A stretch of 23,071 nt of DNA from a virus. Below the pieces are notes generated by a model. It did not search any database, had not been told where the DNA came from, and saw only the letters and a program-made list of their open reading frames with translations. Position numbers and translations under genes: made by a program. The DNA lies in the IMG/VR virus record IMGVR_UViG_3300032331_002187, positions 1-23,071 of that record. One strand, 5' to 3'. This document shows, piece after piece, positions 892-19,572 of the stretch (position 1 is its first letter; every line of letters starts with the position of its first letter).

Positions 892-913
892 TGGTGTTTT
901 TTGAACTGACCGT

Positions 914-919
914 ATTATA
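914..919 (-). promoter_or_regulatory. TATAAT -10 element upstream of the metallopeptidase gene
   Basis: The minus strand reads TTTTTTTGTATAATACGG here: a perfect -10 hexamer directly after the T-tract of the preceding terminator. No convincing -35 lies 17 bases upstream, where the terminator hairpin sits. The ATG is about 23 bases downstream. It could be an early promoter read by host RNA polymerase or a divergent late promoter. Confidence 0.4.
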
Positions 920-920
920 C

Positions 921-945
921 AAAAAAAGGAGATCTTGCGACCTCC
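921..945 (-). terminator. Rho-independent terminator with GCAA loop after the 155-aa gene
   Basis: On the minus strand a 7-bp stem (GGAGGTC pairing with GATCTCC, one G-U) closes a GCAA tetraloop and is followed by seven T. It sits about 30 bases after the stop codon of the 977-1444 gene. The hairpin is part of a 51-bp direct repeat with 1471-1521. Confidence 0.85.
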
Positions 946-971
946 CAGTGTGCCAGTTTAAAAAGTGGTTT
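921..971. repeat. 51-bp direct repeat, copy 1 (terminator module)
   Basis: This block matches 1471-1521 with only three substitutions (positions 932, 943 and 961). It contains the terminator hairpin plus about 25 conserved bases on its upstream side in the minus-strand sense, including AAACTGGCACACTGGG. Conservation outside the stem suggests recent duplication together with the upstream gene, or function in the flank. Confidence 0.9.
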
Positions 972-976
972 TATGA

Positions 977-1444
977 TCAGGGATTATTCCTGTCTACATT
1001 TGCCAGATGTGTTCTACGTCTTTTAGCACGAGCAGCGGCCTCCTTTCGCGCTGCATCTGCAAATGCTTTTGGATTTGCTTGAATTGCCGCACCAACAGCA
1101 TTTTGCTGCTCAGCACGTCTTGCTGCCTCATCTGCTGCAGGAGCACCTTCAACAATACTCTCTATCCACTCTCCACCCATGTTTGCCATGATTTGGAGTG
1201 CTGCCTCTTCATTATCAGCATATCCTTCATTGATTAGATGTGAGAGAATGATGTCGTAGAGGTCAGTTTCTTCTTTTCTTATGACATTTTTCATTTTTGG
1301 TCCTTTTATTGTTCCACCACCTTTAGGTCCACCCTCAGCATCTCGCATATCATAAGTATCCGATATTCTAGGACCCCTACCAGTTTCCTGTTCATAAACA
1401 TTCAAATATGCTTCTTGAAGATTGCGAATATCTTGGGAATTCAT
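977..1444 (-). CDS. MNS-family accessory protein A with EGYAD box
   Basis: This 155-aa protein has no function I recognise. Residues 1-19 (MNSQDIRNLQEAYLNVYEQ) match the N-termini of the proteins at 1521-2159 and 2797-3735. Residues 61-99 hold the shared box, with DLYDIILSHL, EGYADNEEAA, IMANM and ESIVE. The C-terminal 55 residues are rich in Ala, Arg and Lys (ARKEAAARAKRRR), which could bind nucleic acid. The box ends in I-V-E, which fits the (L/I)xE pattern cut by T4-type prohead protease, though that is only suggestive. The gene has its own late promoter at 1464-1471 and its own terminator at 921-945, so it is probably a late, single-gene unit. No clear Shine-Dalgarno sequence is seen. A capsid-packaged or host-modifying role is possible but unproven. 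Confidence 0.8.
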   Translation of the reverse strand: MNSQDIRNLQEAYLNVYEQETGRGPRISDTYDMRDAEGGPKGGGTIKGPKMKNVIRKEETDLYDIILSHLINEGYADNEEAALQIMANMGGEWIESIVEGAPAADEAARRAEQQNAVGAAIQANPKAFADAARKEAAARAKRRRTHLANVDRNNP

Positions 1445-1463
1445 CTTACAACTACTTTTTAGT

Positions 1464-1471
1464 TATTTATA
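1464..1471 (-). promoter_or_regulatory. T4-type late promoter for protein A
   Basis: The minus strand shows a perfect TATAAATA octamer about 20 bases upstream of the ATG at 1444. Its first bases are the end of the T-tract of the preceding terminator. The leader after it (CTAAAAAGTAGTTGTAAG) is nearly identical to that of the 3735 gene. Confidence 0.8.
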
Positions 1472-1495
1472 AAAAAAGGAGGTCTTGCGACCCCC
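1471..1495 (-). terminator. Rho-independent terminator with GCAA loop after protein B
   Basis: Minus-strand stem GGGGGTC / GACCTCC (one G-U) with a GCAA loop and a run of seven T, downstream of the 1521-2159 stop codon. The T-tract runs into the late promoter of the next gene. Confidence 0.85.
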
Positions 1496-1521
1496 CAGTG
1501 TGCCAGTTTAGAAAGTGGTTT
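1471..1521. repeat. 51-bp direct repeat, copy 2 (terminator module)
   Basis: Second copy of the block at 921-971. The differences in the stem (932 and 943 versus 1482 and 1493) only exchange pairs allowed by G-U wobble, so the hairpin is preserved. The copy reaches the stop codon region of protein B. Confidence 0.9.
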
Positions 1522-2159
1522 CAGGCACCCTTTACTTTTGTGCGTGGGACAAATTTCTCCCAGTTGTCTCCGTGCTTTTTCTTCAATTCCTTAACTTTAT
1601 CATTTGCCCTATGGGCATCCGCAAGACTATGAGTGTTTCCAGGACTATCTGGATCCATAGATTCAACAATACTCTCTTTCCAATTGTCACTCATATTTGC
1701 CATAATAGCAAGGGCCGCTTCATTTGTATCAGCATAACCTTCGGCAACCAGGTGCTCCAAAATATGCTCAAACATATCTTTCCCACCCTTTTTAGGAACT
1801 TTGTTTCTTACTTTAAGTACCTGGCGGCCACCTTCTGCCCTCTCTTCCTGAGAAGCACCAGGTCTAAAACGACCCATCATTAATCTACTGTCTCTTTCAA
1901 CCTCTGCTTCTGGTCTTCCTCTTTCTTTATCAGCTTTACGCTGTGCTGATTCATGAGAAAGAGCGCTCAAACTAGTTCTTCTACCTTCATCGAGTTGAAT
2001 ATAATGCTCATACATCTCATCCCAAGTATAATCACTCAAATCATAACCTTCTTCGAGAAGATTATTGACCCAAGACTCGAATTCTAGTTTTTCTCTAATA
2101 TCGTTATCATATACTGCAAGATATGATTCTTGAAGAGTGCGAAATTCTTTTGAGTTCAT
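1521..2159 (-). CDS. MNS-family accessory protein B with two EGY modules
   Basis: This 212-aa protein of unknown function is paralogous to those at 977-1444 and 2797-3735. Residues 1-17 (MNSKEFRTLQESYLAVY) are the family N-terminus. Residues 28-53 hold an extra module, WVNNLLEEGYDLSDYTWDE followed by MYEHY. Residues 128-166 hold the shared box (ILEHLVAEGYADTNEAAL, IMANM, ESIVE). The two modules resemble each other (LLxEGYD... and LVxEGYAD...), so an internal duplication is possible. The region between them is highly charged (RKADKERGRPEAEVERD). The gene is flanked by its own perfect late promoter (2183-2190) and terminator (1471-1495). Similar N-termini and modules are, from memory, frequent in hypothetical proteins of marine T4-like phages. 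Confidence 0.8.
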   Translation of the reverse strand: MNSKEFRTLQESYLAVYDNDIREKLEFESWVNNLLEEGYDLSDYTWDEMYEHYIQLDEGRRTSLSALSHESAQRKADKERGRPEAEVERDSRLMMGRFRPGASQEERAEGGRQVLKVRNKVPKKGGKDMFEHILEHLVAEGYADTNEAALAIMANMSDNWKESIVESMDPDSPGNTHSLADAHRANDKVKELKKKHGDNWEKFVPRTKVKGA

Positions 2160-2182
2160 CTTTACAAAAATACTTTTTCAAT

Positions 2183-2190
2183 TATTTATA
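2183..2190 (-). promoter_or_regulatory. T4-type late promoter for protein B
   Basis: Perfect TATAAATA on the minus strand, 24 bases upstream of the ATG at 2159. The octamer contains the TAA stop codon of the preceding gene (2186-2188), so coding end and promoter share bases. Confidence 0.8.
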
Positions 2191-2455
2191 ATCCTTGTCT
2201 TTTTTGAGATTGTTTTTGCATTTGTGTTATTCTTGGAATATCCTGAGACAAAGGAGATTTTGGTCTGTAGTTAGTATGCTCGGGATATTTTAAAAGATGA
2301 GCTTCGGCACCTATTGCATCAGCAACTTCAGTATTTCCACTTGCCTTTGCTTTAGCATATCCAGTTTTTGTCATTTGAATTGCTGCCTTCCTACTATCAT
2401 AGTTTGGGGCATTTTCAATATCTGCTTCTGAAATAAACTGTTTAAAGGTTTTCAT
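2186..2455 (-). CDS. Small protein with capsid-targeting-like N-terminus (MKTFKQFISEA)
   Basis: An 89-aa protein of unknown function. Its start, MKTFKQFISEADIENA, closely resembles the capsid-targeting sequence of T4 internal head proteins (MKTYQEFIAEA in IPI and IPIII). That peptide directs the protein into the prohead and is removed by the gp21 protease after Glu in an (L/I)xE context. The I-S-E/A at residues 8-11 fits that cleavage rule. The remaining 79 residues are polar and basic (MTKTGYAKAKAS, QMQKQSQKRQGL), as expected of a DNA-associated internal protein. The ATG directly abuts the TAA of the upstream gene, which carries a similar N-terminus, so the two are probably translated together from the late promoter at 3756-3763. 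Packaging and injection are inferred from the N-terminal resemblance. Confidence 0.75.
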   Translation of the reverse strand: MKTFKQFISEADIENAPNYDSRKAAIQMTKTGYAKAKASGNTEVADAIGAEAHLLKYPEHTNYRPKSPLSQDIPRITQMQKQSQKRQGL

Positions 2456-2800
2456 TTACACATCAGTATATTTTGGTTTTTTATAATTACCCCGAATAAC
2501 TGGCATATTATCTGGATTTGAATTTTTGGGAGTTGATATTGGCATTTTTGCAGTGGGTTTGTCCATAATGTCTCTTTTTGCAATATCTTGAATAATATAA
2601 CCACCCCTGCCAGATAAATCAGATGCAGTTTTTCCAACATTTTTAGTTGTTTGTTTTATTGCATCAACTCCACGATTAAGTTGTGTTTTAATTTTATCAA
2701 TAATACTAGGAGATTTTATACCATTAGATGTTGATGGAAGAGCATCAAATGCTTTTCTTGAATTTTCAGATTCTAAAATAAACTGCTTAAAGGTTTTCAC
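2456..2800 (-). CDS. Small protein with capsid-targeting-like N-terminus (MKTFKQFILES)
   Basis: A 114-aa protein of unknown function. It starts at a GTG (2798-2800) that overlaps the TGA stop of the upstream gene as GTGA, typical of translational coupling. Residues 1-11 (MKTFKQFILES) are almost identical to the start of the next gene and resemble the T4 internal-protein capsid-targeting peptide; I-L-E/S would suit gp21-type cleavage. The body is basic, Ser/Thr/Asn-rich and lacks hydrophobic segments (SIIDKIKTQLNRGVDAIKQT). After the shared N-terminus the two proteins diverge, so the tag looks modular. A frame-shifted ATG at 2640 gives only a shadow reading frame and is not used. Confidence 0.7.
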   Translation of the reverse strand: MKTFKQFILESENSRKAFDALPSTSNGIKSPSIIDKIKTQLNRGVDAIKQTTKNVGKTASDLSGRGGYIIQDIAKRDIMDKPTAKMPISTPKNSNPDNMPVIRGNYKKPKYTDV

Positions 2801-3735
2801 TTTTGTCCGTAATATGCTCTTTGTTTTGCAATCGTTTTATTTGCGATATTCTGAGTTCCTTTATATCCAGGTTTTTGTTTTCCTGCTTTTACTAACCACT
2901 CATCAGCATCTTGTGCTTGGGATCTCATTTGATCATCCTTCATATCTGCAAAAGAAGGAACATCATAAGATGGTTTTCGGAATATACTGTTTGCAGTATC
3001 TGGACCGTATGGTTTTCTAGTAAGACTTCTAGGTGGAGTATATGGTTCTGGTTGTTGTTTTGGTTCTTTTTTTGGTCCAAAATTAATATTATAATCTCCT
3101 GGTGTTATTCCACCACTAGAATTAGAACTACCAGAATTAGAAGTAGATGAAGGTTTTGCTGCCATATTTTTCTGCCCAAGAGCAATAACTTGATCTTTAC
3201 TCATTCCAGATTTTTTCATTTTAGCATTACCACCACCTGCTTCAAAATCAGTCATTTCAACAATACTATCTCTCCACTCTTCACTCATATTGACCATAAT
3301 AGCAGTTGCTGCTTCTTCAGTATCAGCATATCCTTCATCAAGAAGATGTGAAAGGATTACATCATAGAGGTCAACTTCCTCAATCTTCATTCTATCTGCA
3401 GATCCTTGTTGAACTTTTGCAGTATTGTACCTAGATCTTTCATCTGCAGTAGGACCTGCTCCAACTCTAGATTGCTTATAAAGACCACGATCAATCGTTG
3501 TATCACCTTTAGAAATTTTTTCTCTTTGCGCTGGAGTAGTAGTCGTAAATGTTCCAGGAACAGGTTTGTTTGGTCCAACACCAATATCAGTTCCAGGTAT
3601 AGACAATGTTGGTTTTACTTTTACAGAACCAGGAACACCACCTTTTTGTGCAAGGACTTCTGCTTCATCAAGTTCTTGGGGAGCATAAACTTGAGTATAA
3701 GCTTTTTGAATAGCACGAAGTTCTTGGGAATTCAT
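2797..3735 (-). CDS. MNS-family accessory protein C with EGYAD box
   Basis: The largest paralogue, 312 aa, function not recognised. Residues 1-17 (MNSQELRAIQKAYTQVY) and the box at 122-160 (DLYDVILSHLLDEGYADTEE, IMVNM, DSIVE) match the proteins at 977-1444 and 1521-2159. The stretch between is Pro/Gly/Thr-rich and probably disordered. After the box come a Ser/Asn-rich linker (SSTSNSGSSNSSGG, near residue 190) and a Pro/Lys-rich tail ending in KQRAYYGQK. It lacks signal peptide and membrane segments. It heads a three-gene unit with 2456-2800 and 2186-2455, driven by the late promoter at 3756-3763. Co-transcription with two capsid-targeted candidates suggests, but does not prove, a shared late role in the virion. 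Confidence 0.8.
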   Translation of the reverse strand: MNSQELRAIQKAYTQVYAPQELDEAEVLAQKGGVPGSVKVKPTLSIPGTDIGVGPNKPVPGTFTTTTPAQREKISKGDTTIDRGLYKQSRVGAGPTADERSRYNTAKVQQGSADRMKIEEVDLYDVILSHLLDEGYADTEEAATAIMVNMSEEWRDSIVEMTDFEAGGGNAKMKKSGMSKDQVIALGQKNMAAKPSSTSNSGSSNSSGGITPGDYNINFGPKKEPKQQPEPYTPPRSLTRKPYGPDTANSIFRKPSYDVPSFADMKDDQMRSQAQDADEWLVKAGKQKPGYKGTQNIANKTIAKQRAYYGQK

Positions 3736-3755
3736 CTTAAAACTACTTTTTTAGG

Positions 3756-3763
3756 TATTTATA
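3756..3763 (-). promoter_or_regulatory. T4-type late promoter for the protein C unit
   Basis: Perfect TATAAATA on the minus strand, 21 bases before the ATG at 3735. It continues directly from the T-tract of the terminator at 3763-3798. The leader (CCTAAAAAAGTAGTTTTAAG) closely matches that of protein A. Confidence 0.8.
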
Positions 3764-3798
3764 AAAAAAGAAGCATCTCTTTGATTGAGACGCTTCTT
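3763..3798 (-). terminator. Rho-independent terminator after the gp46 operon
   Basis: Minus-strand 12-bp stem AAGAAGCGTCTC / GAGATGCTTCTT (one G-U) with a 7-base loop and a run of T. It begins within the stop codon of the 60-aa gene and closes the gp55-gp47-gp46 transcription unit. Confidence 0.85.
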
Positions 3799-3979
3799 AA
3801 GATTCTTCATTCTTTTTTTCGCTTGGCGAATTGCCTGAGGTTTCTTCTTCCCCTTGTCGGGACGACGCGACGGGTGGCGTCCACTTTCCCAGATTTTGTG
3901 GTGGGCCATAGATCCAACGGTCTAGTTTAGACAGCATTCTATCTATAAAAATATCAATCCTATCGGGTTCGTGTGCCAC
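3797..3979 (-). CDS. Small hypothetical protein at the end of the gp46 operon
   Basis: A 60-aa frame starting at GTG (3977-3979), 14 bases after the gp46 stop codon. The product starts MAHEPDRIDIFIDRM and continues with a basic/aromatic stretch (SKLDRWIYG), then a Ser/Glu/Lys-rich tail ending SEKKNEES. The first 25 residues could form an amphipathic helix. The stop codon lies in the terminator stem, which supports a real end of the operon. Codons 20-45 are noticeably richer in G and C than the surroundings. I do not recognise the family and no strong Shine-Dalgarno sequence is seen. No later in-frame start looks better. Confidence 0.5.
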   Translation of the reverse strand: MAHEPDRIDIFIDRMLSKLDRWIYGPPQNLGKWTPPVASSRQGEEETSGNSPSEKKNEES

Positions 3980-3993
3980 TTTAAAAATCGTCC

Positions 3994-5709
3994 CTATGAT
4001 TCAGTTTTATAAGAAAATCCACCTTTCTTATCAAATCTAATAACATTATCAAACTTATCGTGAAGTTCTGACTTATGAGATATTACAAAAATATTCGCAT
4101 CTTTAATCACATAACGAATGATCTTAAGAAACTCATCAGTTCCAAATCCATCAAGAGAACTATCAAATACCTCATCCATAATCAATAGATTTGTATTTAC
4201 AGAGTTCTTCAATCTTGCAACTTCTCTCCAAGTAAAGAGTAGAGATAAGTCTACTCGCATTTTCTCTCCCTCAGAGAATGAGGAATATGAGAAGTTTTCG
4301 TGAATAGGAGATTGAATAGATTCATTGAATTCCTCATCAAGATTAAAGTTAATATAGAAGTCCATCATCTGAAGATAACGGTTAACTTGCTGATTGATGA
4401 AGGGAAGATATTTTTTGATGATCTTCGTCTTTACCCCATCATCTTTAAGAAGAGAGTATGCAAAATCATAATAAACAACCTCATCCTTCTTCTTTGAAAG
4501 ACTCTCAAATGTTTTTTGCAGATTTTCTCTAAACTCCTCTAACTTTTCATGCTCAGTATTTCGATTTTCAAGTTGTTCGGTAATAGTTTGAATTTCAGAT
4601 TCAAGATCTCTGATCTGTCGCTGATTGAGTGAAATCCTAGTATTGTTTTGAGAAATCTCATGATTGAGTTTCGTTATCTCCTTTGAAAGTAAGGTGAATT
4701 GACGCTCCCTCTCTTCTTCCATCTTGATGGTATCTTCAAGGTCTTTATAACCAGATTGCAATTCCTTTGCTTTATTTTGAGCATCTGCAATTCTATCTAG
4801 GCGGAATCTTTCATCAATATCCTGAGTGCAGGTAGGGCATACCGTATTTTCTGTAAAAAATTTATGTTCTGTAGTGATAGCAGATACTTTCTGAGAAATT
4901 TTACCTTTCAGATTTCCAAGTTTTTTAAGTTTATCAGCAGCACCATTTACTTCTTCAAGTTCTTTCGTAAACTTAAAGATATCCTCTTCAGTAATAGAAT
5001 TCTCACGCATATGGATATCAACTTCACCCATAAGTTGAGATACCTTTACCTTACGATTTTCGATATTTTCTTTACCGCGATTTTCCAACTCTTCGATAAA
5101 GTTTTTCTGCATTTTCTCCTTATCTTTGAGATTTTCTTTACGAGACTCTAAAGATTTGATCTGTTCTTTCTCTATACGAATCTTATCTTTGATAAGAGCG
5201 TTCATTGCAGAGAAGATACGAATATCCAACAGATCTTCAATAACTTCACGACGATTTGCCGTAGCCAATTGCATAAAAGGTACAAAATTACTAGAACCCA
5301 GAATCACAATCTGTGTAAAAGACTTATAATTGACCTTGAGAATATTTTCTTCTAGAATTTTTTGATTCGCACGATCATCTGCTTCCTTATGAAGTTGATT
5401 ACCATTAACCTCAATATCAAAAATATTCGGTTTAATTCCACGACGAACAAGATATTCTTTATTGTTTACCGAGAACTCAATCTCAACCAAACAATCCTTT
5501 TCGTTGGTACTATTGGGAAGTTGTGGTTTATTGATTTTACGAAACGGGCGATTGAACAGCACAAAAGTAAGCGCATCCAATACAGTGGATTTGCCTGCAC
5601 CATTTGTTCCGATAATTAGATTTGTATTATGTTTTTGGAAATCTATTTCAGTCCAGTTATTACCAGTACTTAAAAAGTTCTTCCATTTTATCGTCTTAAA
5701 GGTTATCAT
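3994..5709 (-). CDS. gp46: Recombination endonuclease subunit gp46 (Rad50/SbcC-like ATPase)
   Basis: This 571-aa SMC-type ATPase pairs with gp47 to resect DNA ends for recombination-dependent replication, as T4 gp46/gp47 and bacterial SbcC/SbcD do. Length is close to T4 gp46 (about 560). Visible parts: Walker A GTNGAGKST (34-42); a long Glu/Lys-rich coiled coil from about 170 to 400; a zinc-hook CPTC (291-294) near its middle; the ABC signature SFSEGEKMR (about 477-485); Walker B NLLIMDE (507-513) with the following SLD; and the switch histidine in FVISHKSE (about 545). All catalytic elements are present. The ATG overlaps the end of the DUF3110-like gene by 14 bases, so translation is probably coupled. 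Confidence 0.95.
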   Translation of the reverse strand: MITFKTIKWKNFLSTGNNWTEIDFQKHNTNLIIGTNGAGKSTVLDALTFVLFNRPFRKINKPQLPNSTNEKDCLVEIEFSVNNKEYLVRRGIKPNIFDIEVNGNQLHKEADDRANQKILEENILKVNYKSFTQIVILGSSNFVPFMQLATANRREVIEDLLDIRIFSAMNALIKDKIRIEKEQIKSLESRKENLKDKEKMQKNFIEELENRGKENIENRKVKVSQLMGEVDIHMRENSITEEDIFKFTKELEEVNGAADKLKKLGNLKGKISQKVSAITTEHKFFTENTVCPTCTQDIDERFRLDRIADAQNKAKELQSGYKDLEDTIKMEEERERQFTLLSKEITKLNHEISQNNTRISLNQRQIRDLESEIQTITEQLENRNTEHEKLEEFRENLQKTFESLSKKKDEVVYYDFAYSLLKDDGVKTKIIKKYLPFINQQVNRYLQMMDFYINFNLDEEFNESIQSPIHENFSYSSFSEGEKMRVDLSLLFTWREVARLKNSVNTNLLIMDEVFDSSLDGFGTDEFLKIIRYVIKDANIFVISHKSELHDKFDNVIRFDKKGGFSYKTES

Positions 5710-5965
5710 TCAGATTAGGAGGAATAACAATGTCGTTTGAAGTAATCACTGCATATTTGTAATTATAGCGTCTACAAGTCATTATGGCAAGTGCGCCATC
5801 CACTTCCACAACTTCCATTTCTTTCTCATCTTGATCTTCAAGCATTAGAGCATATCTAAAGGCATCATCCTCTTCCTCAAAGAGAAAAAGAACTTTTTCA
5901 CCGTATCTATTTTGAACGGCATATGCTCCATCGTCTTTTTTATCTTTAAGAGTGAGAAGAAACAT
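5696..5965 (-). CDS. DUF3110-like small protein between gp47 and gp46
   Basis: An 89-aa protein of unknown biochemical role. The stretch VLFLFEEEDDAFRYALMLEDQD and the acidic block after it (EMEVVEVDGA) resemble DUF3110, a family found mainly in cyanobacteria and their phages; this is recognition by eye and not a search result. The ATG overlaps the gp47 stop codon by one base (TAATG) and its end overlaps gp46 by 14 bases. This arrangement implies coordinated translation with the nuclease subunits. It could be a small accessory factor of the gp46/47 complex, or a host-derived passenger. It has no signal peptide or membrane segment. Confidence 0.8.
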   Translation of the reverse strand: MFLLTLKDKKDDGAYAVQNRYGEKVLFLFEEEDDAFRYALMLEDQDEKEMEVVEVDGALAIMTCRRYNYKYAVITSNDIVIPPNLNDNL

Positions 5966-7002
5966 TACTCAACTTCGCAAGCTTGTCTATAAAGATCTTG
6001 AAAAATTCCTTTGATGATATTTTTATCATATTCAAATTCTGCTTCATCAATATAACGATTTAGAATTGAAATAGTATTTTCTTCTTCATCAACTTCAAAC
6101 TCCGCACTTTCCTGAATATCAAAGTTTTCAATAATCTTGAGTTCTTGGACACCTGCAGTATAAAGTTTATCAATGAACTTTTCAAAAGATTTTGAATTTG
6201 ATTTTTTACGAACAATAACCTTAACAATCTTGTTTTCATACTCAGTCGCATCAAACATTTGATAAGGAGTATCCTCATAGTAAATATTATAAAATAATTT
6301 ATGAGGATTATTTACTGGAGTATGAGTGAGAGTTTCGGTATCAAAGATATGAAATCCACGAGGATCATTCACATCATTCCAATACATCTCATAAGTATTT
6401 CCAAGATAAAAGATTTTTCCATTATCAGAACGGGTATGATAATGACCAGAGAATACTTTAGTGAACTTATCAAAAATATTTGCATTCATTCCGTGTTCTT
6501 CCATCACAAGATTGCGATTCACACGAAAACCTTGAAGTTCTAAGTGTCCCATAGCAACTTTTGCCTTAGACTTTTTGATTTGATCTAAAGTTTCATCATA
6601 GTTCTCACTACAAATCCAGGGAACCATCATAATGTCTAGACCACAAACTTTAATGGTTTGTGGAGAACTATAGGTACGAATATTTGAATACGTCCGAAGT
6701 AAAAGACTGGGTGAGTTTACACTATTGGTATTCTTATAATAACAATCGTGATTACCTATAATCATGTGAACTTCATAGTTTTTAAGAGGTTCAAATACTA
6801 CACGTTTTGCCCACTCCAGACTTTGATAATCAATTGACTTACGACTATCAAAGGCATCACCCATATGAATGACTGTCTCTACTCTGTGCTCTTCTAGGGC
6901 AGGAAAGAAAACATTCTTGTAGAAGAGTTCAAAGTGATCGTGAAGATGCTTTGAACCTTTCCGTGCGCCAAAATGTGTATCAGTTAAAATTGCGATTTTC
7001 AT
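5965..7002 (-). CDS. gp47: Recombination endonuclease subunit gp47 (Mre11/SbcD-like)
   Basis: This 345-aa metallophosphoesterase is the nuclease subunit of the gp46/gp47 complex; T4 gp47 is about 339 aa. All calcineurin-like metal-binding motifs are visible: DTHFG (D8, H10), HMGDAFDSR (D49), IGNHDCYY (N84, H85), MGHLEL (H153) and SGHYHTR (H187, H189). The C-terminal 100 residues are Glu-rich and would carry the region that contacts gp46. The ATG overlaps the gp55 stop codon by four bases (ATGA) and the stop codon overlaps the next ATG by one, so this is a tightly coupled operon. Nothing is missing or truncated. Confidence 0.95.
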   Translation of the reverse strand: MKIAILTDTHFGARKGSKHLHDHFELFYKNVFFPALEEHRVETVIHMGDAFDSRKSIDYQSLEWAKRVVFEPLKNYEVHMIIGNHDCYYKNTNSVNSPSLLLRTYSNIRTYSSPQTIKVCGLDIMMVPWICSENYDETLDQIKKSKAKVAMGHLELQGFRVNRNLVMEEHGMNANIFDKFTKVFSGHYHTRSDNGKIFYLGNTYEMYWNDVNDPRGFHIFDTETLTHTPVNNPHKLFYNIYYEDTPYQMFDATEYENKIVKVIVRKKSNSKSFEKFIDKLYTAGVQELKIIENFDIQESAEFEVDEEENTISILNRYIDEAEFEYDKNIIKGIFQDLYRQACEVE

Positions 7003-7517
7003 CGATTGCTTCGATATTGGATGTTGTCCTTCATCGCATTATACTCCGAACTGCTGCCAGAAAGCAAGCTGTCATCAATCATCATAACCTCATCAAAACC
7101 AGTTCTTTCAATAATCTTAGTCTTGATTTCCAGTTGTTTCTTTTCTTTTTGTATTCTTCTCAGAAACGCATAGTGAATAATCTGAGTAAAGTAAGCAAAA
7201 GGATTTTGAGATCTTTCTGGATTAAAATTATGAATATATTGGACGCAGTTTTCAATACCATCAGAGATCATATCGTCCCTGAACATATAGTTAACAAAAT
7301 TGGGTTTATATGAAAGATGTGTTGCAATCTTTAAGAAGCATTCGCCTAGGTAGTTGGGAATTCTAGGTTTTCCTTCCCAAGGTCCTGACTTTGGTGGTTC
7401 TGTATCGTATTTCTCAACGAACTTTTCCCGTGCTTTTGCAACTTTGCTTCGATATAATATCAATGCCTCCAATAACTCTTTATTGTTTACATAGTGCTCT
7501 GATTTCTTTTTGGACAT
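6999..7517 (-). CDS. gp55: Late-transcription sigma factor gp55
   Basis: A 172-aa sigma70-like factor; T4 gp55 is 185 aa. In T4 it replaces host sigma on RNA polymerase and recognises the TATAAATA octamer, working with the gp45 clamp and gp33. Visible features are an N-terminal helical part (NNKELLEALILYRSK), the motif DDMISDGIENCVQYI followed by NFNPERSQNPFAYFTQIIHY (sigma region-2-like, residues about 100-136), then a basic segment FLRRIQKEKKQLEIKTKII. The match to gp55 is by pattern and by its position between uvsW and gp47. It is the first gene after the 7518-7647 promoter region, so it is probably read early from the TGTTATAAT promoter at 7554-7582. Perfect target octamers occur six times in this window. 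Confidence 0.9.
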   Translation of the reverse strand: MSKKKSEHYVNNKELLEALILYRSKVAKAREKFVEKYDTEPPKSGPWEGKPRIPNYLGECFLKIATHLSYKPNFVNYMFRDDMISDGIENCVQYIHNFNPERSQNPFAYFTQIIHYAFLRRIQKEKKQLEIKTKIIERTGFDEVMMIDDSLLSGSSSEYNAMKDNIQYRSNR

Positions 7518-7553
7518 AACATTGATCTCTATGGATAAAAAAATATTATGTAT

Positions 7554-7582
7554 ATTATAACATACTTTACATAACTTTAATA
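7554..7582 (-). promoter_or_regulatory. Extended -10 sigma70 promoter for gp55
   Basis: The minus strand has a perfect -10 TATAAT (7554-7559) preceded by TGT, forming an extended -10. A weak -35 (TATTAA, 7577-7582) lies 17 bases upstream. It would start transcripts about 30 bases before the gp55 ATG. Its -35 is two bases from the -35 of the plus-strand promoter, so the pair is back to back. Confidence 0.6.
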
Positions 7583-7584
7583 GC

Positions 7585-7613
7585 TTGACAAGTATGTGAA
7601 ATATGTGTATAAT
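7585..7613 (+). promoter_or_regulatory. Perfect consensus sigma70 promoter on the plus strand
   Basis: TTGACA (7585-7590), an exact 17-base spacer and TATAAT (7608-7613) form a textbook host sigma70 promoter. It points rightward, against all annotated genes, so a transcript starting near 7620 would be antisense to the 7648-8043 gene and uvsW. No plausible plus-strand gene follows. A 14-bp palindrome (GATCTTTAAAGATC) then TTTT lies about 40 bases downstream of the expected start. Confidence 0.7.
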
Positions 7614-7647
7614 ACCTTTGTTAGGTTTGAAGATAATAATTTAGATA

Positions 7648-8043
7648 TTAATTGAGATCTTTAAAGATCTTTTCTAGATTCTTACGAGCATCTTCTACAG
7701 TAGAGATATATCCCATTTTATCGGAAATATTCACTTTTCCATCTAATTCAATATCAACATCTTCATTGTCCAGATATCTCTTATAGAAGTTAATCATTGA
7801 TCCTTCTTTAACTTCTGTCATAGTTACGATCTTATCGTATTTAATTACAAACATATCATCATCCGGGATTTCCAACCAAGGTTTTACCTTAACATATTGA
7901 CCGATATGATTACTGACTATCTTCATGATAACAGGATTGTGAAGAATAATAATAGGATCTCCATCATTTTCATCAACGCATACTAAAGAAAATATTTCTT
8001 CACCCGTTACCAATTTAATTACACTATAAAATTCTTCTCCCAT
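7648..8043 (-). CDS. Conserved-looking small protein between uvsW and gp55
   Basis: A 131-aa protein I cannot assign firmly. The start MGEEFYSVIKLVTGEEIFSL followed by IIILHNPVIMKI and a run of alternating hydrophobic residues resembles a small Sm-like beta-barrel, but this is only impression. The C-terminal third is acidic, then ends with a helix (VEDARKNLEKIFKDLN). The ATG overlaps the uvsW stop codon by one base (TAATG), so it is translationally coupled to the helicase and probably acts in the same late DNA-metabolism phase. No terminator is visible at its end apart from a palindrome inside the last codons. Proteins at this position are common in marine T4-like phages and usually annotated hypothetical. 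Confidence 0.8.
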   Translation of the reverse strand: MGEEFYSVIKLVTGEEIFSLVCVDENDGDPIIILHNPVIMKIVSNHIGQYVKVKPWLEIPDDDMFVIKYDKIVTMTEVKEGSMINFYKRYLDNEDVDIELDGKVNISDKMGYISTVEDARKNLEKIFKDLN

Positions 8044-9506
8044 TAGTTTTTAAGAGCGACGTTTACAATCTCATAATTGAAGTTCTCTTCATTATAAATT
8101 TTAATTCTCTCAATAAGATGATTTAATGTATAATTCTTTCTTGATTTATAACTAATATCATCGGCAATGTCATATAGAGTTGCTTTTACTTTGTTTTCAC
8201 CTTTTCTAAGAACTCTACCGATTGATTGAAGATTTCTGATTCTCGATTTACTGGGAGAAGCAAAGATAACATTGTGAAGATTTCGAATATTAACACCAGT
8301 AGAAAAAGTGCCATAAGAAGCAACGATGATTGCATTATTCTCCTTTTCGGTTATTTCTCTAACTTTTTCCCGTTCTTCAGTTTCTACGCCACCATGGACA
8401 AAGAAAACATGTCTATCATCAATCTTATCATTATTTATGAGTTCATATAAAGGTTGTCCATGACCTTCGACTCTTGAAAATAAAACAAGAGTATTTCCCT
8501 TTAAATCTAGAGCAAGATTTTTGATAAAATTATTTCTCTTTTGATGATTGATGATATATTGAATCTCATCTTCAAATACTTCAAATCTATTTGGTGGGTG
8601 TTTCAATAGCAGTATTTTGATATCCAACTTAGCAAGATGACCCTTCTTCATTAGTTCATCTGTGTTGATAATTTTATAAGAAGGTCCAAATAATCCTTCT
8701 AATACCCATTTGTGAGTTTGACTTCCATCTAGTGTTCCAGTAAATCCAAAGCGATATTTTGCATCACAAAGTTTCGTCATTATAGATATTAATGACTTGG
8801 ATTTAAATTGGTGTGCTTCATCTCCTACGACTACATTAAATCTGGAAAAATACTGCTTGGGCAATTTGTAAATACTTTGCCAGGTGGTAATAATAACTTG
8901 GGAATCAGTTTCTCGTTCCTTACCAGCGTATATCTTGTGGCAGTATGAACCAACATCCCATCCATAATCTGCAAAATCTTTATACATTTGTTCTACAAGG
9001 GAAGTCGTCGGCACAACTATCAGAATATTTTGCTGCTTCTCAACGTAATATCTCACAACAGAATATATCATTAACGACTTTCCAGAAGCAGTTGGAGATA
9101 TCAATAATTTTCGATTATGTCGCAAGGCGTCGTATACTCCCTCAACTTGGTAGTCGCGTGGGGCGTGTCTACTGATCGCAGTCATATAATCTTTCACACC
9201 TTCCGTTGAGATGTTCTCATTTATCTCAAAGGGAAGTCCGTAAAATTTGTTGTTTGAGAATTCATACGTATATTCATGATCCTCACAGAATCGAATAATT
9301 CTGTCTAAGAGTCCAATATAGATTTCTCTCGTATCTACATTAAACAAATATATGCGACCATCCCACCATTTATTTTTATATGAAGGAGAAAACTTGGCAT
9401 TTGGAACTTCAAATTGAAATGCGTCTCTTAATTCATAATAGATATGAGGTTCTGCTTGAATAGTTAAATACACCTCATTCTTTTTTGATATAATCAAATG
9501 TGACAT
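8043..9506 (-). CDS. uvsW: UvsW-like RNA-DNA / DNA helicase
   Basis: This 487-aa superfamily 2 helicase corresponds to T4 UvsW (503 aa). UvsW unwinds R-loops and branched DNA and shifts replication from origin- to recombination-dependent mode. Motifs: Q-like RDYQVEG (about 117-123), Walker A SPTASGKS (137-144), DEAH (229-232, in VVGDEAHQFKS), motif III FTGTLDG (about 255-261), the second RecA domain with LVLFSRVEGHG, and motif VI QSIGRVLRKG. The N-terminal 100 residues include KWWDGRIYLF, matching the UvsW N-terminal DNA-binding domain. It follows a terminator and a one-mismatch late octamer (9528-9535), consistent with late expression as in T4. The next gene overlaps its stop codon. Confidence 0.95.
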   Translation of the reverse strand: MSHLIISKKNEVYLTIQAEPHIYYELRDAFQFEVPNAKFSPSYKNKWWDGRIYLFNVDTREIYIGLLDRIIRFCEDHEYTYEFSNNKFYGLPFEINENISTEGVKDYMTAISRHAPRDYQVEGVYDALRHNRKLLISPTASGKSLMIYSVVRYYVEKQQNILIVVPTTSLVEQMYKDFADYGWDVGSYCHKIYAGKERETDSQVIITTWQSIYKLPKQYFSRFNVVVGDEAHQFKSKSLISIMTKLCDAKYRFGFTGTLDGSQTHKWVLEGLFGPSYKIINTDELMKKGHLAKLDIKILLLKHPPNRFEVFEDEIQYIINHQKRNNFIKNLALDLKGNTLVLFSRVEGHGQPLYELINNDKIDDRHVFFVHGGVETEEREKVREITEKENNAIIVASYGTFSTGVNIRNLHNVIFASPSKSRIRNLQSIGRVLRKGENKVKATLYDIADDISYKSRKNYTLNHLIERIKIYNEENFNYEIVNVALKN

Positions 9507-9527
9507 TCATATAATATCAGTTATAGG

Positions 9528-9535
9528 TATTTATT
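9528..9535 (-). promoter_or_regulatory. Probable late promoter for uvsW (AATAAATA)
   Basis: The minus strand reads AATAAATA, one mismatch from the late octamer, 22 bases upstream of the uvsW ATG and just after a terminator. In T4 uvsW is a late gene, which fits. No good -35/-10 pair was seen. Confidence 0.5.
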
Positions 9536-9540
9536 GGCAA

Positions 9541-9565
9541 TAAAAAAGAGGCATTTCTGCCTTCT
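9541..9565 (-). terminator. Rho-independent terminator after uvsY
   Basis: Minus-strand stem AGGCA / TGCCT with a GAAA tetraloop, extended by a few more pairs across a one-base bulge, followed by six T. It lies just after the uvsY stop codon (9569-9571). Confidence 0.7.
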
Positions 9566-9568
9566 CAA

Positions 9569-10000
9569 TTAATTATATCCAGCACTAAATCTCATAAACT
9601 CTATTGCATTTTTAATTTGATAAGTTCTATTAGAAACTGTCTTAATGATCTCTTCTAAGAACTTAAGCATAATGTCATAATATTTTATCTTCAAATCAAT
9701 TTTAGAAAGTCTTTCATCGGCACTCATATACCTCTCTATTGCGTCCTTTTCCCTTACCTTATACGGAAATGGGTCCTCTACATAGACCTCTGCTGGTGCC
9801 TTTCCTGTGTAGTAGTTGTAACGTTCTAGACGCACTCTATTATAGGTTTCTCGTGCCTTCTCACGAAGAAGAGTAATTGTATTGTAGATGGTATAGTATT
9901 TGGAATGTAGTTGAGGAATTTTTAGTGATTCATCGTGTAGGTTGTCTGGATCGATGACAGAATCTCTCTGCCACATCTCCTGAATTTCATCAAGATTCAT
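9569..10000 (-). CDS. uvsY: UvsY recombination mediator
   Basis: A 143-aa protein; T4 UvsY is 137 aa. UvsY loads the UvsX recombinase onto gp32-coated single-stranded DNA. The sequence follows the T4 protein through its length: RLERYNYYTGK corresponds to the T4 RLDYYSGR segment, then MSADERLSKIDLKIKYYDIM to the T4 LSADKDVLKVD...YW segment. The ending IKNAIEFMRFSAG corresponds to IKHIQDMRAFEAG. It is almost wholly alpha-helical, as expected. The ATG overlaps the stop codon of the upstream gene by four bases (ATGA). It is followed by a terminator, so it ends the unit that starts behind gp23. Confidence 0.9.
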   Translation of the reverse strand: MNLDEIQEMWQRDSVIDPDNLHDESLKIPQLHSKYYTIYNTITLLREKARETYNRVRLERYNYYTGKAPAEVYVEDPFPYKVREKDAIERYMSADERLSKIDLKIKYYDIMLKFLEEIIKTVSNRTYQIKNAIEFMRFSAGYN

Positions 10001-10539
10001 AGAGGTTGGTTATTGGTTCCTAGGATATTATAGACAGTATACTTGAAAGATACCTCTGCTGTAAAGTACTGAATATCTGTAAGTGTAGAATCAAAATCAA
10101 GTGAAGATAAGGAAACGGGAAATAAGTCTTTAAACTTTACAACAGCATTATCTTTATAGTTACTATTTAAAATGTGCAATGTCCCATCACTAAAAGCATC
10201 TTTTGGATCCCTAATTCCATTCTCAATAATTAAATCTGCATATTGTCCTGTTGTTTCTGGATATCCAAGACCAGTTAACCAATTATGAATTGCCATATAG
10301 TTTTCTAAATTTTCATCAACAAGAAATCTTAAATTCAAATCTCCATAAGAAAGTTTTTCACCAGGAACATCTAGATCTTTAAGATACGATGGTTGAATAT
10401 TGGTTTGCAAAGTAATCTCTGGTATTCTTGTAGAATTGCAAAAAAATACTACCTTTGGTTCTTTTGCTAAACTAAACTTAAATCCAACTGGAGATAAGAA
10501 GTTTCTATTTTGTATTTGATTTGCTAATGAAGATGCCAT
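9997..10539 (-). CDS. Tail-tube-fold structural protein (gp3/gp19-like position)
   Basis: A 180-aa virion protein. The text NFLSPVGFKFSL, then STRIPEITLQT, then LDVPGEKLSYGDLNLRFLVD and IHNWLTGLG is the pattern of tail-tube-fold proteins such as T4 gp19 and gp54. In marine T4-like phages the gene between gp23 and uvsY is often annotated gp3, the tail completion and sheath stabiliser. Both sequence pattern and position support a tail-tube or tail-terminator role, but the exact T4 equivalent is uncertain, so no symbol is given. It begins two bases after the preceding gene and overlaps uvsY by four. It is distinct from the true gp19 at 16753-17343, with little obvious identity. Confidence 0.75.
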   Translation of the reverse strand: MASSLANQIQNRNFLSPVGFKFSLAKEPKVVFFCNSTRIPEITLQTNIQPSYLKDLDVPGEKLSYGDLNLRFLVDENLENYMAIHNWLTGLGYPETTGQYADLIIENGIRDPKDAFSDGTLHILNSNYKDNAVVKFKDLFPVSLSSLDFDSTLTDIQYFTAEVSFKYTVYNILGTNNQPL

Positions 10540-10541
10540 TT

Positions 10542-11168
10542 TTATTTTTTAGGTGCAGGTGCAGTCTTTGCATTTGATGGTGAAGAAACTTGTGTATAGA
10601 CCATTCTTTTTCCCCATTTTTGAGGTGTGATATTTGTGCCAGCAATATCTTTTGTGATTTGTGGTGAAAGATCAAAACTAGTATCTTTATTCACATTACC
10701 AGTTTTTCCAAAATCTCCAACATCATTAATCTTTGCCTTAGTTTCTTTTGTTTTTGTTCCCTGTGGTTCTGCAGTAACTCTTAGCGTCGATCCATAGGGA
10801 ATTGAAGGTGCTCCACTTTGTCCTTTTGGTGCTTGACCCTCTTTATATTTGAATGGAACTGCAGCATTTCTGGTTTTCCAATTGTGAGGATCTCCAGTTG
10901 CTGTTACTGCATTTGGTGTAAAGGCATCTCCTGGTGCGTAAACACTTGCTTTTACTGGTTTCCAACCATATCTATTTTGCTCTGTATCACTATGTGCTCT
11001 TTGTGTAAACTTCCCAGTAGATTTATCGAGAACTCCTGGTTGATAGTTTTTATATGCAAGAACTTCTTTAGAAGGTTCTTTAGAAGGTTTTGGTTTAGTA
11101 GATTTTGCAACTAAATTCAAATCCTCTATAATATTTGCATCTTTACAAAATTGCTTATAGGATTTCAT
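10542..11168 (-). CDS. Protein with CTS-like N-terminus and possible RlpA-like double-psi barrel
   Basis: A 208-aa protein. The start MKSYKQFCKDANIIEDLN resembles the MKTFKQF / MKTYQEF capsid-targeting-like peptides, though the (L/I)xE cleavage residue is absent at the expected site. After a Lys/Pro linker, residues of about 75-185 read ASVYAPGDAF, TATGDP, IPYGSTLRVT, AKINDVGDFG and SFDLSPQI. The order and spacing recall RlpA / 3D-domain double-psi barrels (ASWYGPG... TA..G... LPFGTxVRVT... VxVNDRGPF... DLS). Such domains act on or bind peptidoglycan. The C-terminus is Ala/Pro/Lys-rich. The gene sits behind the gp23 terminator and a one-mismatch late octamer. A role in wall penetration is inference and the domain call is by eye. 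Confidence 0.65.
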   Translation of the reverse strand: MKSYKQFCKDANIIEDLNLVAKSTKPKPSKEPSKEVLAYKNYQPGVLDKSTGKFTQRAHSDTEQNRYGWKPVKASVYAPGDAFTPNAVTATGDPHNWKTRNAAVPFKYKEGQAPKGQSGAPSIPYGSTLRVTAEPQGTKTKETKAKINDVGDFGKTGNVNKDTSFDLSPQITKDIAGTNITPQKWGKRMVYTQVSSPSNAKTAPAPKK

Positions 11169-11187
11169 TTATCTGAGATTTTTTTAG

Positions 11188-11195
11188 TATTTAGA
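11188..11195 (-). promoter_or_regulatory. Probable late promoter (TCTAAATA)
   Basis: One mismatch from TATAAATA on the minus strand, 20 bases upstream of the ATG at 11168 and directly after the T-tract of the gp23 terminator, the same layout as the perfect octamers at 1464 and 3756. Confidence 0.55.
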
Positions 11196-11224
11196 TAAAA
11201 AAAGACCCCCCTTGCGGGAGGTCT
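11196..11224 (-). terminator. Strong rho-independent terminator after gp23
   Basis: Minus-strand 9-bp GC-rich stem AGACCTCCC / GGGGGGTCT (one G-U) closing a GCAA tetraloop, followed by seven T. It lies about 22 bases after the gp23 stop codon and is the strongest terminator seen here. Confidence 0.9.
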
Positions 11225-11245
11225 GAGAAGATATGTGAACCGAGA

Positions 11246-12640
11246 TCACATTAGGTTGTCAACACGAACTCTTCTGTAGTAACGATTAGAGTTCATCTGG
11301 ATGCGACCTGCACCAGCAGTAGTTCCTTCAGCGAATGGGTTAGCAACAATACCATATCTGGTCTTGAAGCCAATCTTGGGCTGGAAGGTGTCCTGACCAA
11401 CGGCACGAACCATTTGGAGAGGAACATATGGGCAGTAGAATAAACCAGCATCATAAGGGGAAGAACCCTTATAACCAACAACGTAGTATTGGTTAGAAGC
11501 AACGTTTGCCGAATAAGGATCGATATAAACACGATACTTACCTTGGAGGATACCAGCAAAAGTATTGCCAGTGTCATCAACATTGAGGTTAGCGTTAAGA
11601 GCTGGGGTGTAATCAAGAACACCTGCCATGGTGAGTGCCGAAGCAACGTCTGCCGAGCAGAGGATCATGTTACCCTTTCCTCTACGAGTTCTTTGTGCGA
11701 TTGCGTTAGCATCACGCTCGATTTGGAAGATAAGACCCTTGAACTTCTCAACTGACCAACGACCGTTGGAGTCAACGTCAAGGTCAAAAGTACCAGCGGT
11801 AGCAACGTTTGCTTGAGCACCAGACTCAGCAACGCCATAGATGGTACGGATAACTTCACGGTTGATTTCGGCAAGAATCTCTGTTGAGAGAATGTTTGCC
11901 AACTCAGCTTCTGCATTCAGACCGTGGATTGCCTTGAGGTCTTGTGCGAGTTCGAGCGAATACTCGGCCTTCAGAGCACGTGACTTAGCAGTAACGGTGA
12001 CTTTCTCGATTGAGAATGCCATTTCGTTGAAGTAGTCACCACTACCTTGACCAAGGTTTTCTGAGTCATCGGTTCTCATGCCCTGACCTACGTTGTAGGT
12101 AGTTGCAGTTTGACCCGACTCAGGATTTAGAAGACCTGGGTTTGTTCCACGTTGAGTAGTAGTACCAAGACCAACAGAACCACTGGTGAATCCGTTAGTA
12201 AGATTGAATCCGCTGTCCTGACCAGAGAATGCTGAATCTGCTTCGTTGAACAGAGCTTCAGTGCCGCTTTGGCTGTTGTATCTTGCACGCATTGCGAAGA
12301 TGAGTCCAGTAGGACCGTTCATTGGTTGAACGCCTGCGAGGTCATAAGCGACCAAGTTAGGCATTGCGCGTCTGATCAAGGAGATCAAAACAGGGTCGAA
12401 ACCTTGCATAGCGCCAGTGCTGCTACCACTAAGACCAGTGCCAGATGCAGTGCTGGTGCTAGTGAAGTTGGTTGGAGCTTCTGAAAGGAAAGTGTGCTCT
12501 TCACGGAGCTCTCTTTCTTGGTTTTCGAGCAGGATAGCGGTTACTGATCTGCGATGTGAATCTTGGATCGGATCCATTCCTTGATAATCAAGGATTGGTG
12601 CCCACTTCTCCTGCAATTGTTCTGCATTGAACATTTGCAT
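11246..12640 (-). CDS. gp23: Major capsid protein gp23
   Basis: This 464-aa protein forms the capsid hexamers; T4 gp23 is 521 aa and marine relatives are shorter. Signature text includes DPVLISLIRRAMPNLVAYDL, VQPMNGPTGLIFAMRARY, VTAKSRALKAEYSLELAQDL and the C-terminal KTRYGIVANPF. A likely gp21 cleavage site is FLSE/A at residues 51-55, removing 54 residues, which compares with 65 in T4. The start at 12640 has AGAGG nine bases upstream, supporting it over the second Met two codons later. An octamer one mismatch from the late consensus (TATAAACA) lies 37 bases upstream, and a strong terminator follows. Codons look more regular and less AT-rich than in the accessory genes, as expected for a highly expressed protein. 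Confidence 0.97.
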   Translation of the reverse strand: MQMFNAEQLQEKWAPILDYQGMDPIQDSHRRSVTAILLENQERELREEHTFLSEAPTNFTSTSTASGTGLSGSSTGAMQGFDPVLISLIRRAMPNLVAYDLAGVQPMNGPTGLIFAMRARYNSQSGTEALFNEADSAFSGQDSGFNLTNGFTSGSVGLGTTTQRGTNPGLLNPESGQTATTYNVGQGMRTDDSENLGQGSGDYFNEMAFSIEKVTVTAKSRALKAEYSLELAQDLKAIHGLNAEAELANILSTEILAEINREVIRTIYGVAESGAQANVATAGTFDLDVDSNGRWSVEKFKGLIFQIERDANAIAQRTRRGKGNMILCSADVASALTMAGVLDYTPALNANLNVDDTGNTFAGILQGKYRVYIDPYSANVASNQYYVVGYKGSSPYDAGLFYCPYVPLQMVRAVGQDTFQPKIGFKTRYGIVANPFAEGTTAGAGRIQMNSNRYYRRVRVDNLM

Positions 12641-12676
12641 TTGATTTTACCTCTTTAAAAATTGTTGTTGTTTGAG

Positions 12677-12684
12677 TGTTTATA
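12677..12684 (-). promoter_or_regulatory. Probable late promoter for gp23 (TATAAACA)
   Basis: One mismatch from TATAAATA on the minus strand, 37 bases before the gp23 ATG. It lies inside AGATTATAAACAC, which closely matches AGATTATAACAC upstream of gp22. Confidence 0.6.
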
Positions 12685-12693
12685 ATCTAAAAA

Positions 12694-13866
12694 TCACTTT
12701 TTAGAAACTCTACTCAGAGTTTGTAAATATGCTCCCATAATTCCAGAAACTTCTGGTTGTTGGAGTTGCACGTCTGTGCTTTCAGATAAATTCTCTGAGT
12801 CATCTCTTTGAGCACTAGTACCTCTAGATGGGAAATAAGATTCCCTTAAAGTTGCCAGTTTCTCACGATATTCTGCTTCACTTTCAAACTCAACATTTTC
12901 AGCGAGAGAAGCGAGTTTGTCCTTCTGAGAAAGTGCAAGACCCTCAGCGACATCTGCAAAAATTACATCAGCAACCGACTCTGCTAATCTTCTATTCAGA
13001 GCAACATTTCTTTGAATTTGCTCGTTGAGTTTTTCTTCCATTTCATCAAGTTTATCTACCATACTCTCGATTACATCATATCTATCTTCAGGGATTGAAA
13101 CATAATGATCTTCAAAAAGACCCTTCATTCCAGCAAGGAATGATTCGGTCATTTCGGTCTTAAGACCGTGCTCAACTGCGAGTGCATTCTCTTGAATCCA
13201 CTCGTCAGCAACATACTCAAGATAAGCATCAACACGGTCAGTAAGACCTTCTTTGATTGCTTCGATTTCTTCTACAAGTGCAACTTCATATGCTGCCTGT
13301 AGATCTTCTTTGATTTCAGCAACCTTAGATTTGATTGCTGCCTCAAAGATGGTGCGTGCTTTCTCTTGGAATTCCTCAGAAAGCTCCTCACCTGAAAGGA
13401 GAGCATTGACATCTTCTTCGATATCATACTCTTCCTTCATTCCACAATCATCTTCATCTTCCTTATCATCTTCATCTTCCTTATCATCTTCACCCTTTTT
13501 CTTTTTCTTTTTCTTGGGTGCGTCTTCTTCCTCATCATCTTCTTTAGCCGCTTCGAGGATTTCTTCTTCTTCTAGAACTTCCTCTTCGGTTTCAAATTCT
13601 TCCTTTGCAACACTCTTCATTTCTTCTGCTGCAGCGGCTTTTGCATTAACAACATTCTTGACTTGGGCAAGAGTTGCTCCAGGAGTGTTAAGTTTTGCGG
13701 AATCATCGTCTGGGCGATAATTGTCGACTGTAGGGCCTCCCAAGTCTTCCCAAGATCCAGTTTGTCCGGGAGCAATACCCGTGGACAACTTTTGCATTGG
13801 TTCAGCTTGTGCAGCGTCTTTGGTTACTACGTTTTCCATTTCTTGTAAATTGCTACCAACGGACAT
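12694..13866 (-). CDS. gp22: Prohead core scaffold protein gp22
   Basis: A 390-aa, very acidic, largely helical scaffold protein located between the protease and the major capsid protein, as in T4, where gp22 is 269 aa. Residues of about 80-150 are low complexity: ETEEEVLEEEEILEAAKEDD, then a run of seven Lys (PKKKKKKKGE) and DDKEDEDDKEDEDD. Residues of roughly 150-320 form a long charged helical region (EEFQEKARTIFEAAIKSKVA, MVDKLDEMEEKLNEQIQ). The C-terminus has PEVSGIMGAYLQTLSRVSKK, typical of T4-like gp22. The protein assembles inside the prohead and is degraded by gp21 on maturation; several (L/I)xE sites are present. It has a perfect late octamer at 13897-13904. Confidence 0.93.
   Translation of the reverse strand: MSVGSNLQEMENVVTKDAAQAEPMQKLSTGIAPGQTGSWEDLGGPTVDNYRPDDDSAKLNTPGATLAQVKNVVNAKAAAAEEMKSVAKEEFETEEEVLEEEEILEAAKEDDEEEDAPKKKKKKKGEDDKEDEDDKEDEDDCGMKEEYDIEEDVNALLSGEELSEEFQEKARTIFEAAIKSKVAEIKEDLQAAYEVALVEEIEAIKEGLTDRVDAYLEYVADEWIQENALAVEHGLKTEMTESFLAGMKGLFEDHYVSIPEDRYDVIESMVDKLDEMEEKLNEQIQRNVALNRRLAESVADVIFADVAEGLALSQKDKLASLAENVEFESEAEYREKLATLRESYFPSRGTSAQRDDSENLSESTDVQLQQPEVSGIMGAYLQTLSRVSKK
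13447..13492. repeat. 18-bp tandem repeat inside gp22
   Basis: The plus-strand unit ttatcatcttcatcttcc is repeated about 2.6 times, encoding DDKEDE units. The third copy is partial and the first has two mismatches. The period is a multiple of three, so copy-number changes would keep the frame. Confidence 0.8.
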
Positions 13867-13896
13867 TTTTGTTTTGATTGTGTTATAATCTATATT

Positions 13897-13904
13897 TATT
13901 TATA
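13897..13904 (-). promoter_or_regulatory. T4-type late promoter for gp22
   Basis: Perfect TATAAATA on the minus strand, 31 bases upstream of the gp22 ATG at 13866, immediately after the gp21 stop codon. A second element, AGATTATAACAC (13880-13891), lies between it and the gene. Confidence 0.75.
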
Positions 13905-13906
13905 AT

Positions 13907-14557: not shown

Positions 14558-14558
14558 T

Positions 14559-14995: not shown

Positions 14996-15019
14996 AAAAT
15001 TAGGTATATGTCTATCTTC

Positions 15020-16720: not shown

Positions 16721-16752
16721 AGTATAATCTGTGAACTCTTGTTATATTCTAT

Positions 16753-17343: not shown

Positions 17344-17366
17344 AGTTGTTTAAACCTCTAAGTTAA

Positions 17367-19535: not shown

Positions 19536-19572
19536 CTTTATTCTCCCCTACAAGGCCAATGTATTCTAGAAA

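Follow-up and report, generated by a model that had tools for sequence, protein, structure and literature searches.

A conserved sigma-70 promoter antisense to the late uvsW unit at the gp55 junction of T4-like cyanophages

Introduction

The stretch of DNA analyzed here, referred to as the window, comprises 23,071 nucleotides (about 23 kb; IMG/VR record IMGVR_UViG_3300032331_002187) of a T4-like cyanophage. All of its recognisable genes, namely gp46, gp47, gp55, an Sm-like protein gene, uvsW, uvsY, and the tail and head genes, lie on the minus strand. A perfect sigma-70 promoter on the plus strand, within the 130 bases that separate gp55 from the Sm-like gene, raises the question of whether it is used, what RNA it would make, and what such an RNA or its synthesis could do at this junction. 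In T4-type phages gp55 is the switch to late transcription, and marine cyanophages lack MotA and AsiA. An antisense promoter of consensus sequence that essentially every examined relative keeps beside gp55, as do some T4-like phages from outside the family, would be a concrete piece of the timing control of the late switch in these abundant marine phages.

Promoter and gene organization of the window

The initial annotation had described TTGACA, a 17-base spacer and TATAAT at 7585–7613 of the plus strand, with the nearby genes all on the minus strand, and the hexamers, the spacer and the gene strands could all be confirmed. A scan of positions 1–20000 revealed this as the sole site matching the sigma-70 consensus at 12 of 12 positions, and the TTGACA/TATAAT pattern with spacers of 15–19 bases occurred once in the window compared with 0.07 expected from dinucleotide shuffles. 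The features of the junction were as follows.

7585..7590, plus strand: -35 hexamer TTGACA of the antisense promoter, exact
7608..7613, plus strand: -10 hexamer TATAAT of the antisense promoter
7614..7626, plus strand: short dyad ACCT-TTGTT-AGGT spanning the predicted start site
7620 (G) and 7620..7637, plus strand: predicted start G and conserved 5' leader GTTAGGTTTGAAGATAAT of the predicted antisense RNA, placed by the start G position and the conservation profile in relatives
7656..7673, plus strand: GATCTTTAAAGATC followed by TTTT, a weak terminator proposed by the initial annotation
6999..7517, minus strand: gp55, late sigma factor (phrog_234)
7554..7562, minus strand: extended -10 TGTTATAAT of the divergent gp55 promoter
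7586..7591, minus strand: TTGTCA, in relatives the shared -35 of the gp55 promoter
7648..8043, minus strand: Sm-like protein gene (PF16243 Sm_like, above cut-off), its 3' end antisense to the predicted RNA
8043..9506, minus strand: uvsW helicase, the next gene along the antisense path
9528..9534, minus strand: late promoter ATAAATA upstream of uvsW
9549..9562, minus strand: terminator-like hairpin closing the uvsY unit ahead of the uvsW late promoter

The predicted start lies 28 nt before the stop codon of the Sm-like gene and on the opposite strand to it, and the RNA would thus be cis-antisense. The gene labelled 'methylamine utilization' in many cyanophages encodes this Sm-like domain protein (PF16243), which also has weak similarity to PDB 3by7. 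Elsewhere in the window, three minus-strand ORFs (977–1444, 1521–2159 and 2797–3735) matched different parts of phrog_3708, a family of unknown function, and perhaps represent a duplicated or broken large gene.

Conservation of the promoter among relatives

Homologous gaps were gathered from IMG/VR and from GenBank phages, including S-RIM2, S-CAM22, S-MbCM6, S-RSM4, P-SSM2, P-SSM7, S-SSM7 and ACG-2014d/e/f; the counts refer to the matches listed, a set weighted to near relatives. Among the first 103 distinct gaps TTGACA was invariant and the spacer was 17 bases in all except two. The wider set listed 229 distinct gp55-upstream gaps, of which 219 matched the strict pattern, 214 of them with a 17-base spacer and 218 with an exact TTGACA, while the -10 was TAGAAT, TAGACT, TACAAT or similar in most relatives. 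Nine of the ten gaps missed by the strict pattern carried TTGACA (TTGACG once), a spacer of 16–17 bases and TATAAT; the tenth was an extraction miss, with the antisense site present in the same contig. Over all 229 gaps, TTGCCA and TTGACG each replaced TTGACA in one. Thus a TTGACA and a TATAAT-like hexamer with sigma-70 spacing (16–18 bases) were found at 7585–7613 and were also kept in the relatives.

The site could also be found outside Kyanoviridae, in the Sinorhizobium phages phiM7 and phiN3 and in further contigs. In one group of nine contigs (L229–L237), where the gene facing the promoter was identified by tblastn, the end of uvsW lies about 55 bp away from the promoter, which still points into uvsW, and no Sm-like gene was found by the same search.

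Weighted information content averaged 0.97 bits per position over +1 to +20 against about 0.1 bit in the flanks. Conservation peaked at the -35, at GGGC before it, at AAA and a G in the spacer, at the -10, and then over +1 to +18, and returned to background past the Sm-like stop codon. All 113 homologous sequences had a start G at a distance of 7 or 8 nt downstream of the -10. Conservation in relatives rules out a chance occurrence. The initial annotation had named a comparison of this gap between related phages as a check, with loss of the hexamers counting against the promoter; they are not lost, since hexamers and spacing are nearly invariant, also beside the gp55 promoter. Because the site, its spacing and its start region are kept in essentially every relative examined, we infer that the promoter is almost certainly used, and it is very probably a working early promoter.

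Overlap with the gp55 promoter and position at the late unit

The gp55 promoter of most relatives, usually with a TATAAT -10, shares or overlaps the -35 of the antisense promoter. When the two -35 elements were compared in 228 gaps, they overlapped in 110, the gp55 element fell inside the antisense spacer in 74, and they abutted in 22; in about 22 relatives the two promoters stood well apart or none could be recognised for gp55. The junction is marked by sigma-70 hexamers at fixed spacing, a fixed start G, a leader with a dyad, and -35 elements that mostly overlap or abut. The claim of a genuine promoter that is antisense to the Sm-like/uvsW unit and stands back to back with that of gp55 is borne out by this conservation. 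In the window itself the overlap has been lost. The extended -10 reported for gp55 (TGTTATAAT, 7562–7554, minus strand) is real, but the -35 that the initial annotation had placed two bases from TTGACA is poor here. TTGTCA is probably no longer used for gp55 in this phage, because it lies 26 bases from the gp55 -10.

The two sides of the gap differ in their late signals. A late promoter ATAAATA was present upstream of uvsW in 70 of 99 relatives, mostly 26–28 bases before the start codon, and upstream of gp55 in one of 229 gaps. The antisense promoter therefore lies at a border, with a late unit on one side and an early gene on the other. Early transcription by the unmodified host polymerase is the published view for cyanophages (PMC2984593).

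The late promoter of uvsW makes an early antisense RNA directed against a late gene a coherent idea, and the initial annotation had proposed such an RNA to keep late uvsW mRNA off early in infection. The UvsW protein of T4 is a late product that unwinds R-loops at origins. An early RNA could accordingly pair with uvsW or Sm-like mRNA, or block its polymerase, so that the R-loop helicase is withheld until origin replication is done. The T4 role and timing, the late promoter, and the contigs in which the promoter faces the 3' end of uvsW about 55 bp away with the Sm-like gene missing all fit this proposal. Against it, no synonymous constraint was found in the overlapped Sm-like gene, and a copy of the element elsewhere in the genome, described below, behaves differently.

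Properties of the predicted antisense RNA

The promoter probably makes a non-coding antisense RNA. No start or frame of a plus-strand ORF following the predicted start was shared among the relatives, and a hidden ORF or protein-coding leader was rejected. The only annotated antisense ORF among the records examined was gp36 of phiM7, a 50-amino-acid ORF (L222:1108–1260) downstream of the antisense promoter; in the same phage, the end of gp55 overlaps with the gene of the homing endonuclease MobE.

The initial annotation had further suggested that a palindrome could end the transcript as a small RNA. The palindrome (7656–7669, followed by TTTT) exists, but it is AT-rich and private to the window, being present in one of 113 homologous sequences. 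Intrinsic terminators were predicted within the first 140 nt in 14 of 109 relatives compared with 11.5 in shuffles, which is chance level, and a small RNA terminated in this way was rejected. Mean folding z-scores of -0.2 to -0.5, similar on the opposite strand, gave no signal of a stable conserved fold, and an Rfam family search with the antisense RNA returned no match; a structured RNA was likewise rejected. A host-derived leader was dismissed, as no exact leader match occurred in the genome_contigs collection. To our knowledge cyanobacteria have no Rho, and the antisense transcript may therefore be long. A literature search found no paper on this site in the gp55 gap, and the excerpts of a strand-specific RNA-seq study of P-HM2 infection (PMC5082946) report nothing on it.

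The sharp conservation of the leader raises the alternative that its unstructured 5' end (GTTAGGGTTGAAGA) is the seed of a trans-acting small RNA directed at phage or host messages, possibly together with the neighbouring Sm-like protein. This would be consistent with strong conservation confined to +1 to +18, with the Sm-like gene adjoining the site in cyanophages, and with a leader common to the dispersed copies described below. Such a role nevertheless seems rather improbable given the chance-level terminators and the lack of a fold signal or Rfam match, and the promoter persists where the Sm-like gene is absent.

A dispersed class of promoters with a common leader

Across six complete cyanophage genomes, the pattern TTGACA-17-TANANT matched 75 sites on the gene strand and 10 on the opposite strand, five of the latter being the gp55 site. 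Pattern scans of IMG/VR revealed that promoter and leader together form a dispersed class with at most three strict copies in any one genome. At 21 of 56 sites a SegE-type GIY-YIG nuclease gene follows a copy in the sense orientation, and at 14 of 56 a DEAD/DEAH helicase gene does; the class is thus not specific to antisense use, since these copies drive ordinary genes. Antisense copies were also found divergent from glutaredoxin, and there the antisense target differs between phages. As the divergent gene is constant and the target varies, the element appears to serve the divergent gene or the junction rather than one target. This counts against silencing of uvsW: its late promoter stands in favour of the proposed antisense control, the changing target at glutaredoxin against it, and on balance we consider it unlikely.

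Several arrangements of these copies could be described. Back-to-back divergent promoters precede glutaredoxin, with the antisense arm carrying the leader of the gp55 site, in L213:3631–4355 (S-SRM01, about 10.6–11.4 kb), L542, L588 and L525. At the helicase copy, the leader contains a strong terminator 65–78 nt after the start, as in L637 (S-SKS1, 169858, minus strand) and L638 (S-SRM01, 44601, plus strand); this attenuator-like arrangement recurs in many contigs and has no Rfam match. In composite terminator-promoters (L439, L444, L548, L567 and L416), an upstream terminator-like hairpin (GGGGGCTTGACAAGTCCCCTTTTTTT) holds TTGACA in its loop, and the T-run of the hairpin forms the promoter spacer.

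The arms of the dyad spanning the start site co-vary in relatives. At sites not next to gp55, the dyad was kept in 52 of 56, compared with 36 expected when sites exchanged their 3' parts (at most 45 in any of 2000 swaps); the swaps ignore phylogeny, and the result is support rather than proof because relatedness is uncorrected. The dyad is unlikely to act as a hairpin of the antisense transcript, since its 5' arm precedes the predicted start. It could instead be recognised at +1 by a factor of phage or host origin, which would switch an early regulon consisting of the SegE-like nuclease, the helicase, and the antisense transcripts at gp55 and glutaredoxin. The excess over arm swapping and the leader common to sense and antisense copies agree with this. 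The arms occur both as CC/GG and as GG/CC, sometimes in one genome, which a sequence-specific protein is unlikely to tolerate easily, and a regulon of this kind is accordingly doubtful, about as much so as a trans-acting RNA.

The sense copies before SegE-type GIY-YIG genes, together with the 50-amino-acid ORF after the phiM7 promoter, might point to a relic of a lost divergent gene, such as a SegE-like homing endonuclease that carried the promoter class. A nuclease gene of this type occurs in the gap of no relative surveyed, and conservation is far above neutral. A functionless leftover, as the initial annotation had alternatively offered, does not fit conservation so far above background, and we regard the relic as highly improbable, whereas such an origin followed by domestication is possible. 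More broadly, T4-like phages may have a promoter-leader module in dispersed copies with a start-site dyad that covaries, some copies serving as ordinary early promoters and others as divergent antisense promoters that mark a boundary between late units and downstream early genes, gp55 above all, and possibly spread by SegE-type homing genes before domestication; this generalization is speculative, although possible.

Evaluation of the site as a replication origin

The site adjoins uvsW, and its transcript could, as at T4 ori(uvsY), form an R-loop that primes synthesis. The detrended GC-skew minimum fell within about 1–20 kb of the site in four genomes, but the offset was mostly 14–20 kb and the signal weak, and relatives have a better candidate elsewhere, marked by iterons and DnaA-box-like repeats. 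An origin at the gp55 site is thus very unlikely.

Another antisense promoter of consensus sequence recurs, pointing away from an early promoter, in L181:1058–1256 (S-SKS1, 151258, plus strand), L178 (S-SRM01, about 85471, minus strand), L182 (S-SM2, 58164, minus strand) and SynMITS9220M01 (49670, minus strand). In S-SKS1 it is followed by five 22-bp iterons and DnaA-box-like TTTTCCACA/TTATCCACA repeats. This second locus is a good candidate for the replication origin of T4-like cyanophages.

Proposed role at the junction

Compared with silencing of uvsW, a trans-acting small RNA, a start-site regulon, an origin or a relic, we favour, tentatively and to judge from sequence, a boundary or competitor role for the site, as an early promoter conserved in divergent orientation where gp55 meets the late uvsW or uvsW–Sm-like unit. 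The unmodified host polymerase would fire the antisense promoter early, and an untranslated, unterminated plus-strand RNA from about 7620 would enter the 3' end of the late unit in antisense. Where the two promoters overlap, a polymerase could occupy only one of them at a time, and the antisense promoter would compete with that of gp55; with such occupancy, the site would act as both a timer and a boundary. Convergent transcription or antisense pairing may limit the late-unit messages (uvsW and Sm-like), and read-through of the late unit into gp55-gp47-gp46 may likewise be limited until host-sigma transcription fades. Three findings weigh against a boundary or competition role. It does not by itself account for the conservation of the leader, the gp55 promoter is separated or unrecognised in about 22 relatives, with the overlap lost in this window, and ordinary genes are driven by sense copies of the promoter class.

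Comparison with known systems

The anti-late RNAs of T4 are early RNAs complementary to late messages and are not known to be tied to one dedicated junction promoter. The RNA predicted here would be of the same kind in another T4-type phage, but with a consensus promoter and a conserved leader fixed at one junction. The T4 origins ori(uvsY) and oriF are R-loop origins; a promoter lies close to uvsW/uvsY, and its RNA could remain on the template. The gp55 site likewise has a promoter near these genes, but its position and polarity differ, and a convincing origin signature is absent from it.

The closest likeness among cyanophages is CfrI of S-PM2 (Millard et al. 2010), an experimentally detected antisense RNA of about 225 nt at psbA and a homing endonuclease gene, as described in PMC2984593 and PMC12197685. 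CfrI likewise belongs to a T4-like cyanophage and extends in antisense out of an intergenic gap into the 3' part of the adjacent gene, the course that is predicted for the RNA at gp55. CfrI lies at psbA and the homing endonuclease, whereas the present site lies at gp55/uvsW in essentially all relatives examined, and its RNA is a prediction from sequence. Overlapping or back-to-back divergent bacterial promoters offer a further parallel, in that two sigma-70 promoters share or abut their -35 regions; at the gp55 junction, in contrast, no gene product can be recognised for one of the arms, which has a leader specific to the phages and a dyad on its start site.
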